64,000 nucleotides of DNA from Nitrosopumilus cobalaminigenes (GTDB lineage: Archaea > Thermoproteota > Nitrososphaeria > Nitrososphaerales > Nitrosopumilaceae): the NCBI RefSeq assembly GCF_013407145.1, contig NZ_CP026993.1:310001-374000 (forward strand). Reading direction: 5' to 3'. The notes below the pieces were generated by a model that searched no databases, was not told where the DNA came from, and saw only the letters and a list, made by a program, of their open reading frames with translations. This document shows positions 29,247-31,866 of the stretch, piece by piece. Position 1 is the stretch's first letter. Each line of letters begins with the position of its first letter. A program made the translations under genes and the position numbers.

Positions 29247-29951
29247 TTGTCTCAAAAAGAAATTGAAGAGTCCCTTGACTTACTAGAAAAAGACTGGGAT
29301 GTTGATCCAATTCTTCGAAAATTTATGTTGGGAAAAATTACCGACGTATCTGACTATCCAATCAAAGTAAAGGATGTAGTCTTTCATGTTCCCTATTTGA
29401 ATTCTGAAAAAAAATACATTTTATGGAAATGCTATTGGCCTGATTGTCACAATTGTTGTGACAGACAAGGTAGGTTACCGTTAACTTCTGATGATTTGAT
29501 AACAATCGGCAAGGGCTTGAAATACAATAGACCTTCTGATTTTGTAAAAAATGAAACCCTAACTGTAACGTATCAGGAGCCTGGTCCCTCTGGCCAAATG
29601 ACTACAATGACTACAATTAATCTGAAAAGAAAAACAGACGAGACAGAAGCTGACGATGGAACTCACATCTCTTGCAGGTTCCTAGATGGTGAAGGTGGGT
29701 GCTCTATGCATCCAGACAGACCTGGAGTGTGCTATCTGTATCCATTTTCTAGCTGGCTTGAAAATGAAAAGGGCAAGGCTAGAGTGCATGCAACGTATCA
29801 GTTTACAGGTGATTGCCCTGGATTTTACCTGGCTGATTCACTTGATCCAATGAAAGACGAGTTTAAGGATTATTCTAAAACAATCTACGATTACAACATG
29901 GCATCAAATAGAACAAATCGTGAAGGGTTTGGTTCTGTAAGTTTTAGCTAA
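29247..29951 (+). CDS. YkgJ-family cysteine-cluster protein
   Basis: Predicted metal or Fe-S binding protein of 234 residues. The cysteine pattern is CYWPDCHNCCDRQG near residue 65, then CRFLDGEGGCSMHPDRPGVCYLYP near residue 145 and a Cys in TGDCPGFYL. This matches the YkgJ/UPF0153 family, whose members are thought to bind zinc or iron; the biochemical role is not established. TTG start at 29247. Its stop overlaps the convergent reductase gene by four bases. Confidence 0.82.
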   Translation: MSQKEIEESLDLLEKDWDVDPILRKFMLGKITDVSDYPIKVKDVVFHVPYLNSEKKYILWKCYWPDCHNCCDRQGRLPLTSDDLITIGKGLKYNRPSDFVKNETLTVTYQEPGPSGQMTTMTTINLKRKTDETEADDGTHISCRFLDGEGGCSMHPDRPGVCYLYPFSSWLENEKGKARVHATYQFTGDCPGFYLADSLDPMKDEFKDYSKTIYDYNMASNRTNREGFGSVSFS

Positions 29952-30961
29952 GCCTTTGCAACTTTGAGCAAATCTGAAATTTTAATGTCCATTCCAAATC
30001 TGTCTTGATTCTTTTTCATATAGAAAAAGATTGACAAAAAGTCTGGCAATGCCTTGATAAAACTAAAGTCCTTGTGAATTTTTGCTCGAACAAAATTAAA
30101 CACCTTGGCATAAACCTTGTAGTGTTTTTCAATTGCTTTCTCATATGCTGCAAAGTCATTCATGTTCTCTACAAAAATATCGACACACTGCATTGATGGA
30201 ATGATTCCCTCCCCTAGTAATGCATAGACAGTACCAATTGATTCTCCAACTCCTACCACCTTACCTGAATAGTATGGCTTGCATCTGTCAGGTGTTGCAA
30301 GTCTGATTGGCCTTCCTTTGGTTTTGAGAACCTTACCTCCGTGTTTCTTTAGAAAATCATCAGTTGCCTTGATGTGTTGTTTATTGTAATCACCTGCTCC
30401 AATGTGGGCCCATTTCTCACCTAGTGGGAAATACCAGAAATAACCTGACATTCCTGGAAATGGTTCAATGTAAAAGTCATCATATGGAACTCCGTCTTCG
30501 TACTCTACCTTGTACTCGTATGTTGGCAAGAAAAAGTCATCTTTCATTTTTGGCAAGTATGCTCTTCCAAATCCTGTGCAATCAACTATCATGTCGTACT
30601 CTTTTTCCAAATCTTCAAGCTTTGGAGCTTCGCCGTAGATAATTTTTGAATCTTTGATGAAATCTTTGATTAATGCCAGTTTGTCATATGTGCACATTCC
30701 ATGCAATCCAATGTCAAACTTTACATCATTGTTCATTTTGACATGCATGTTTTTTCCGTCATGGATTAGAAAATCATTAAAATCTCTGTCTACCTTTTTG
30801 CAAAATTCTGTCAGTACTGGCTTGATTGTACCCCATGCGCAAATAGAGTCATGGTTTTCTTCTCTGTTTCTCTCATATCCGATGACTTCATGGTTAGAGT
30901 TCTTTAGTCTGGCCATAAGGTATGATCCTGCTACTCCCATTCCCATTACTGCTATCTTCAA
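29948..30961 (-). CDS. Geranylgeranyl reductase family FAD protein
   Basis: FAD-dependent reductase of 337 residues, likely saturating isoprenoid chains of membrane lipids. The N-terminal GMGVAGSYLM is the dinucleotide motif; DCTGFGRAYLP and the substrate motif YFWYFPLGEKWAHIGAG match the PxxYxWxFP pattern of geranylgeranyl reductases; GVGESIGTVYALLGEGI is the second FAD motif. Shorter than the ~390-450 residues of many family members. The promoter is shared with, or close to, the RNA gene region 31000-31230. Confidence 0.85.
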   Translation of the reverse strand: MKIAVMGMGVAGSYLMARLKNSNHEVIGYERNREENHDSICAWGTIKPVLTEFCKKVDRDFNDFLIHDGKNMHVKMNNDVKFDIGLHGMCTYDKLALIKDFIKDSKIIYGEAPKLEDLEKEYDMIVDCTGFGRAYLPKMKDDFFLPTYEYKVEYEDGVPYDDFYIEPFPGMSGYFWYFPLGEKWAHIGAGDYNKQHIKATDDFLKKHGGKVLKTKGRPIRLATPDRCKPYYSGKVVGVGESIGTVYALLGEGIIPSMQCVDIFVENMNDFAAYEKAIEKHYKVYAKVFNFVRAKIHKDFSFIKALPDFLSIFFYMKKNQDRFGMDIKISDLLKVAKA

Positions 30962-31048
30962 GATGTCTTCTTTGAATTTGAGGTGTAATAAATAGACTAT
31001 CTGAATTTGTTTGGGTCTTTTCTCAATAGTAGGAAAAGATAGTGCCGG

Positions 31049-31055
31049 TTAAATA
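31049..31055 (+). promoter_or_regulatory. TATA box of the candidate structured RNA
   Basis: TTAAATA preceded by GCCGG, centred at 31052. A start site 27 bases downstream is 31079, exactly the first base of the closing helix of the RNA candidate. Confidence 0.6.
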
Positions 31056-31078: not shown

Positions 31079-31226
31079 GAAAAGGTGAGTCTCTCGTCTG
31101 AGTACAATCGTTTCAGACCTTAAGACAAATCGCTGTCATCAGATAACTCTCTAGTTACTGATCTTAAGTGGTAAAGCTGTCATCAGTATCCCTTTGGGTA
31201 CTGATCTTAAGCTGTAACACCTTTTC
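31079..31226 (+). ncRNA. Candidate new structured RNA: three hairpins with CTTAAG linkers
   Basis: No protein frame explains this stretch. The ends pair perfectly over nine bases (31079-31087 GAAAAGGTG with 31218-31226 CACCTTTTC). Inside are three hairpins with a 43-44 base period: 31096-31118 (GTCTGAG/TTCAGAC), 31138-31162 (ATCAG-A-TAAC/GTTACTGAT) and 31182-31205 (ATCAGTA-T-CCC/GGGTACTGAT). Each is followed at once by CTTAAG (31119, 31163, 31206); the second and third are preceded by GCTGTC. The stems differ in sequence but keep pairing. The nitroreductase TATA lies downstream of the element, so it is not an mRNA leader. The T-rich 3' end could act in termination. No match to a known RNA is recalled. 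Confidence 0.6.
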
Positions 31227-31263
31227 ATTTCAATTAAATTTGGGGATTTTGTTGCGTTATTTC

Positions 31264-31866
31264 ATGGATACTTTTGAGGCAATTAGAACTAGACGTGCAA
31301 TCAAGAAATTTGATAGCTCTTACAAAATGTCACCTGAAGATGTCAAGCTATTACAAGAACTAACAATACTATCTCCAACTAGCTACAACCAACAAAACTG
31401 GAGATTCGTCTATGTAACTGACCAAGCAGTTAAAGAGAAAATCTCAAAAGCTGCCCGTGATCAGGCCCAGCCAAAAGACGGTTCATTGGTAATTGTTCTT
31501 TGTGGAAATCTTGATGCATGGAAAGAAGATCCATTACGTTACTGGAGAAATAATACTCCAGAAAAACAAGAACTTGTGAAGAATTCTCTAGCTAGAAAAT
31601 ATGAGAATCATCCAGAGAATCGCCGCGATGAGGCAATGCGCTCTTGTGGATTTGCAGCTCAAACAATAATGTTAGCAGCAAGACAGATGGGATTGGATTC
31701 ATGTCCGATGGTTGGCTTTGAGTATGATGAATTAGCTGAGTTGATTAACTTGCCTGAAAACCACATGATCGTAATGATGGTAGTAGTTGGCAAACGGGCT
31801 GAAGATGCAGCAGAGCGTGGCGGTCAGTTAGCTTTGGATGAAGTGTTCTTTGAGAATCATTTTTAG
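31264..31866 (+). CDS. Nitroreductase family FMN protein
   Basis: Flavoprotein of 200 residues that reduces nitro compounds, quinones or similar acceptors with NAD(P)H. Signatures: FEAIRTRRAIKKFD near the N-terminus (FMN phosphate contact), SPTSYNQQNWRFVYV, SCGFAAQTIMLAARQMGLDS and GFEYDELAELINLP. Frames from upstream codons (from 31168) run through the RNA element and were rejected: ATG 31264 lies about 28 nt after a TATA-like CAATTAAATTTGG, so it is a leaderless start. Substrate unknown. Confidence 0.87.
   Translation: MDTFEAIRTRRAIKKFDSSYKMSPEDVKLLQELTILSPTSYNQQNWRFVYVTDQAVKEKISKAARDQAQPKDGSLVIVLCGNLDAWKEDPLRYWRNNTPEKQELVKNSLARKYENHPENRRDEAMRSCGFAAQTIMLAARQMGLDSCPMVGFEYDELAELINLPENHMIVMMVVVGKRAEDAAERGGQLALDEVFFENHF

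Follow-up and report, generated by a model that had tools for sequence, protein, structure and literature searches.

Organisation of the locus and predicted fold

The window, a 64-kb stretch of the Nitrosopumilus cobalaminigenes genome, contains a 148-nt element at positions 31079–31226 of the + strand, which is predicted to fold into three hairpins enclosed by a 9-bp closing helix. On one side lies a divergent FAD/geranylgeranyl-reductase-like gene (29948–30961, - strand) that stands beside most type-1 copies of the element and for which Pfam gave no more than weak matches (PF22578, 22.3 bits with a cut-off of 27). On the other side is a nitroreductase gene (31264–31866, + strand; Pfam PF00881, E = 8.3e-31). 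The element is preceded by the promoter block TAGTAGGAAAAGATAGTGCCGG (31027–31048, + strand) and the TATA box TTAAATA (31049–31055, + strand). Both are conserved in type-1 copies, and the combination of block and TATA box is unique in its own genome at up to three mismatches. The structured part begins at 31079, 30 nt from the start of the TATA box. The original prediction also gave the nitroreductase a TATA box of its own after the element, and a TATA-like ATTAAAT is indeed found there, outside the RNA (31233–31239, + strand) and before the ATG at 31264; it is conserved in most type-1 copies. The longest open reading frame of the nitroreductase (31168–31866) opens with a GTG inside the RNA element, but the true start is probably the ATG, about 31 nt after the TATA-like box.

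The 5' strand of the closing helix, GAAAAGGTG (31079–31087, + strand), begins at the predicted transcript start and pairs perfectly with the 3' strand, CACCTTTTC (31218–31226, + strand). The latter ends in TTTTC and is the probable 3' end of the RNA, and several relatives carry longer T-runs there. The + strand RNA had a minimum free energy of -53.4 kcal/mol, compared to -29.3 ± 3.4 in dinucleotide shuffles (z = -7.01), and none of 200 shuffles reached this value. The reverse strand folded less well (z = -4.4), and as A-C cells are also rare, an RNA from the minus strand was rejected.

Each hairpin, or module, is predicted to consist of an outer stem, an asymmetric 3×4 internal loop and an inner stem. 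The loop has three nucleotides on its 5' side (CTC or GTC) and four on its 3' side, CTTA in the DNA and CUUA in the RNA. Module 1 (31089–31126, + strand) has the outer stem GTCT/AGAC, the loop CTC (31093–31095) and CTTA (31119–31122) and the inner stem GTCTGAG/TTCAGAC. In module 2 (31129–31172, + strand), the outer stem is ATCGCT/AGTGGT, the loop GTC (31135–31137) and CTTA (31163–31166) and the inner stem ATCAG/CTGAT. Module 3 (31175–31213, + strand) combines the outer stem AGCT/AGCT, the loop GTC (31179–31181) and CTTA (31206–31209) and the inner stem ATCAGTATCC/GGGTACTGAT. A single-module covariance model scored these at 40.9, 42.9 and 49.3 bits, respectively, and at no other place in the 64-kb window.

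The features that the original prediction described, namely the perfect 9-bp helix, three hairpins with a period of 43–44 nt, CTTAAG after each inner stem and GCTGTC ahead of hairpins 2 and 3, are all present in the sequence. Its view of CTTAAG as a free linker between hairpins did not hold, because outer stems flank a 3×4 loop that holds CTTA. In each hairpin, CTTAAG is made up of the 3' side of this loop and the AG of the outer stem, and the hairpins are longer than had been drawn. The suggestion that CTTAAG pairs with itself was not supported either, as GUC, which faces it on the 5' side, is conserved to the same degree.

Conservation and covariation of the triple element

A DNA search found the element in 28 of 61 genomes, counting its own, all of them in the same genus. 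In an alignment of 25 copies, 92.3% of pair cells were standard pairs, compared to 31–43% when columns were slid by 1–3 positions, a control that corrects for relatedness. Two-sided changes occurred at 18 of 44 pairs versus 9.6 expected from shuffles, which do not correct for relatedness, and none of 500 shuffles matched the observed covariation. The sequence of the closing helix differs between copies (GAAAAGGTG/CACCTTTTC, GAAAAGACAA/TTGTCTTTTC and ACAAGACC/GGTTTTGT) while pairing is kept, and one relative (L022) has only two hairpins within a re-formed closing helix. The proposed covarying, structured RNA is thus borne out across relatives. G-U pairs exceeded A-C mismatches by 64 to 8, from which it follows that the + strand is the functional strand.

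The gene downstream of the element is a nitroreductase in most relatives, a 142-aa protein in three (L023, L025 and L029) and, from reading of the sequence only, a methyltransferase-like protein in another (L027). In two copies from one genome (L024 and L030 in G001), hairpin 1 is kept and is followed by a different downstream sequence that the two have in common, CATCAGAAAC...CCTGATTT.GAATGAA.AATTTGGAATCTGCT.

A larger family built from single hairpins

Beyond the genus, a covariance model of the entire element recovered strong homologues elsewhere in the family, along with two loci of two modules (L066 and L067) and two of one module (L069 and L076); a further solitary module (L075) was judged by eye. 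Matches to the whole element near 30–35 bits were left out: many look like single modules, and chance may account for some. The original prediction was right about a new structured RNA and too narrow about its extent. It had seen a single member, and the unit is the single hairpin module, which occurs elsewhere alone, in pairs or in threes.

We aligned 55 modules, some solitary and others taken from the first, second or third place in their element. In this alignment 96% of cells were paired, 13 of 14 pairs had two-sided changes and the covariation score was three times that of shuffles. The letters of the internal loop are nearly invariant, whereas the stems vary freely: the loop consensus is 5'-U[GUC]RYC / GRY[CUUA]A-3', between two freely covarying stems. 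The tip of the hairpin, with AC...GU closing pairs, is less strictly kept than the loop. The modules contained 47 G-U cells versus 2 A-C cells, which indicates selection on the RNA of the + strand.

Distribution across genomes

Of 400 genomes in the order, the one-hairpin covariance model matched 151, which represent 12 genera. With the exception of one fragmented genome (G183), these all belong to the family Nitrosopumilaceae, and in a draw of 300 genomes from the phylum the matches were likewise confined to this family. The genome collection is a sample, in which the number of modules per genome ranged from none to about 20; the 400-genome search detected no module copy in some genomes of the genus Nitrosopumilus. 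The genome analysed here has six modules, three in the element and three single ones, all on the minus strand (C1:217567–217607, 1055533–1055573 and 1477795–1477835). Other genomes with the triple element include G126 (C1:1391722–1391864, minus strand) and G129 (C1:324578–324723, plus strand), and G129 also has single modules on the minus strand at 520106–520146 and 1004150–1004190. An exact-pattern scan of named genomes returned records of Nitrosopumilus, Nitrosarchaeum, Nitrosotalea and Nitrosomaritimum, among others, and a few contigs with bacterial labels. One of the bacterial-labelled contigs, from a Phycisphaerae metagenome-assembled genome (L251), bears two strong modules; it is probably archaeal and misbinned. 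Another (L281) had one weak match, and two (L228 and L245) had none. The module in G183 (L183), the sole genome outside the family, has a family-typical promoter, and this genome is probably contaminated with a misbinned archaeal contig. A viral origin was considered and rejected: 37 viral stretches had exact-pattern matches, but no more than three reached the model cut-off (29, 26 and 23 bits), and these are probably chance matches.

Promoters at a conserved distance

In 54 of 131 single copies, a TATA-like box was found 36–46 nt before UGUC, against 5.7 when the upstream sequence was shuffled; the distances peak sharply at 37 nt. In these copies, the outer stem begins to pair 28–29 nt after the start of the TATA box, at the place where an archaeal transcript would begin. 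This is the arrangement expected of independent small RNA genes with their own promoter at a fixed distance. A conserved block, CgTA.aAAT.ATCAG.Atg, lies upstream of the TATA box of single copies. The window's triple element is laid out alike, with TTAAATA preceded by a related block. When eight genomes were scanned with the family promoter pattern at up to three mismatches, it was found at nine places, compared to none for the reversed control. All nine belong to family members, seven being placed immediately before a single module and two immediately before a triple element. About half of the single copies have no recognised TATA box at this distance, and transcription therefore need not be alike in all copies.

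Genes downstream of single copies lie on the same strand in 50 cases and on the opposite strand in 56, as judged by an open reading frame heuristic. As downstream genes can face in either direction, the RNAs look like independent genes rather than leaders. Several copies have T-runs after the closing stem. The spacing between promoter and stem, conserved family-wide, and the varying downstream neighbours agree with the independent RNA that had been predicted to start at 31079; judged from these sequence features, the element is very probably an independent transcript of about 148 nt. From the common promoter layout we infer transcription of the other members as well, which appear to be served by dedicated promoters. 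A scan for sigma-70 promoters was set aside as not relevant for archaea.

Comparison with known RNAs

A search of Rfam 15 with the element, at E-values up to 10, gave no match above the gathering threshold and only a sub-threshold match to DGCR5 over the last bases. For ten loci with other family members, the same database returned tRNAs only. The original statement that no RNA of this plan is known agrees with Rfam 15 and the open-access literature, neither of which yielded a lineage-specific structured RNA of Nitrosopumilus and its relatives in our searches. Two non-coding RNA genes are annotated in N. zosterae, presumably those for RNase P and the SRP RNA. The genome report of this species lists no more than two such genes (PMC13248708), and the main text of a survey of 104 candidates does not mention Cenarchaeum or Crenarchaeota (PMC2864571).

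Several known systems resemble the family in part. Archaeal H/ACA guide RNAs likewise contain an internal loop in each of their one to three hairpins (PMC7991803), but the loop sequence of the modules is fixed and not target-variable. An ACA box 3' of the module hairpins was not enriched (9 of 120, compared to 10.3 ± 3.1 in shuffles), K-turn-like UGA..GA letters were present in only 12 of 120 inner hairpins by a crude letter test, and a scan for TAAGTNGAC, confined to the 64-kb window, gave no match. Like the triple element, the bacterial sequestering RNAs CsrB and RsmZ present a repeated recognition motif in the hairpins of one RNA encoded by an independent gene. However, the modules have no conserved GGA, their conserved part being the internal loop GUC/CUUA, and the family is archaeal and includes single-hairpin genes, so that the resemblance is one of plan only. 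The ToxI-like RNA repeats of type III toxin-antitoxin systems are also tandem folded units of about 40 nt in one RNA. Unlike these, the element has no toxin gene downstream, where the nitroreductase or other genes are found, and modules also occur alone at unrelated loci. Finally, Tan1 of marine Euryarchaeota is likewise a lineage-specific structured non-coding RNA of marine planktonic archaea with unknown function (PMC5069720). It belongs to another phylum, is 229 nt long and comes with expression evidence, whereas the family described here is known from sequence alone, and the two are set apart by their descriptions.

Possible roles of the family

The element is a three-module member of a previously undescribed family of small RNAs in Nitrosopumilaceae. 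As the loop and, more loosely, the tip are constrained in sequence while the stems vary, a protein recognition site seems the most likely role for the module. The freely varying stems, the kept loop and the presence of one to three identical loops per RNA all point this way. A single-module RNA would then offer one site, and the triple RNA, a closed multi-branch scaffold with three sites, would titrate or assemble the bound protein. The chances that the module is such a protein site and the triple RNA a decoy or scaffold seem to us about even. A CsrB-like decoy predicts module copies as target sites in mRNAs, and no clear ones were found. For the biological role we infer, more tentatively, an archaeal RNA–protein system of a kind not yet known, in which promoter-driven RNAs of one to three GUC/CUUA hairpins may control an RNA-binding protein through one or several sites.

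A protein could also bind the module within a stable housekeeping particle, to which the module would contribute the structural or catalytic RNA. The conservation of modules at conserved positions across genera and the lack of noticed mRNA-embedded target sites fit such a core, but a copy number from none to about 20 and absence from some genomes of the genus do not, which leaves this reading rather unlikely. A small and nearly invariant internal loop would equally be expected if it bound a small molecule or cleaved RNA without protein. For such an aptamer or ribozyme, however, the 50:56 split in downstream direction leaves no linked gene for control, identical loops are repeated in one RNA, and a 3×4 loop is small for an aptamer; we consider it improbable.

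A riboswitch or attenuator in the leader of the downstream gene is suggested by the nitroreductase that follows most type-1 copies. This gene has its own TATA box after the element, unrelated genes replace it in relatives and the single copies do not hold a fixed co-directional position, so that a cis-regulatory role is very unlikely in general; a nitroreductase leader in particular was rejected, as the downstream neighbours of the triple element vary. Although their plan of one to three hairpins with internal loops recalls H/ACA-type pseudouridine guides, the modules show no enrichment of the ACA box and few K-turn-like letters, and identical loop letters throughout would imply one target for all modules; guides of this type were rejected and have hardly any probability left. 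Equally slight is the probability of a dispersed repeat or mobile hairpin acting as DNA. Up to about 20 dispersed copies per genome would suit it, but the G-U excess reflects selection on the RNA of one strand, TATA spacing and gene neighbourhoods are conserved, and the modules are not convincingly present in viral contigs.

The mechanism may be of a familiar kind, and the novelty lies in the RNA family, which nothing known matches. Among nitrifiers, Nitrosopumilus and its relatives rank with the most abundant, and abundant marine ammonia oxidisers belong to the Nitrosopumilaceae. The RNA family, which has up to about 20 modules per genome, a promoter element of its own and an almost invariant loop, offers a concrete handle for probing or for use as bait for a partner.

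Variant gene structures and promoters

In a second class of multi-module genes (L070–L072, L074 and L068), the region between two modules is not itself a module (e.g., CTGAGACCAAAGTCGCATCCCCCGCATTGGAATCAG in L070). This middle region has a different fold and perhaps forms a domain of its own. The promoters of this class have CACTAG about 17 nt before CACTAGTTAAATA. As a mark of family promoters, CACTAGTTAAATA was rejected: it stands before other genes too, and the reversed control occurs about as often. The layout of the second class recurs on the minus strand of the N. cobalaminigenes genome (L349, C1:627035–627047), where CACTAG occurs twice, the second time joined to TTAAATA, before an apparent protein gene; it is perhaps a common transcription-factor site.

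One of the single-module RNAs lies beside the same neighbour genes across several genera (L112, L115, L120, L121, L142, L144 and L172), one neighbour being citrate-synthase-like by sequence reading. This group has a different conserved upstream block, TTGAACA..TTCTTTCTTTTATGATTC, and no clear TTAAATA box. In another genus (L161, L162, L165 and L166), a single module is embedded in a longer stem, CGGCATCGGTAGCT...AGCTAGGGGTGCCG, between two genes with mutually similar products. The stem is followed by six or seven T, a probable terminator.
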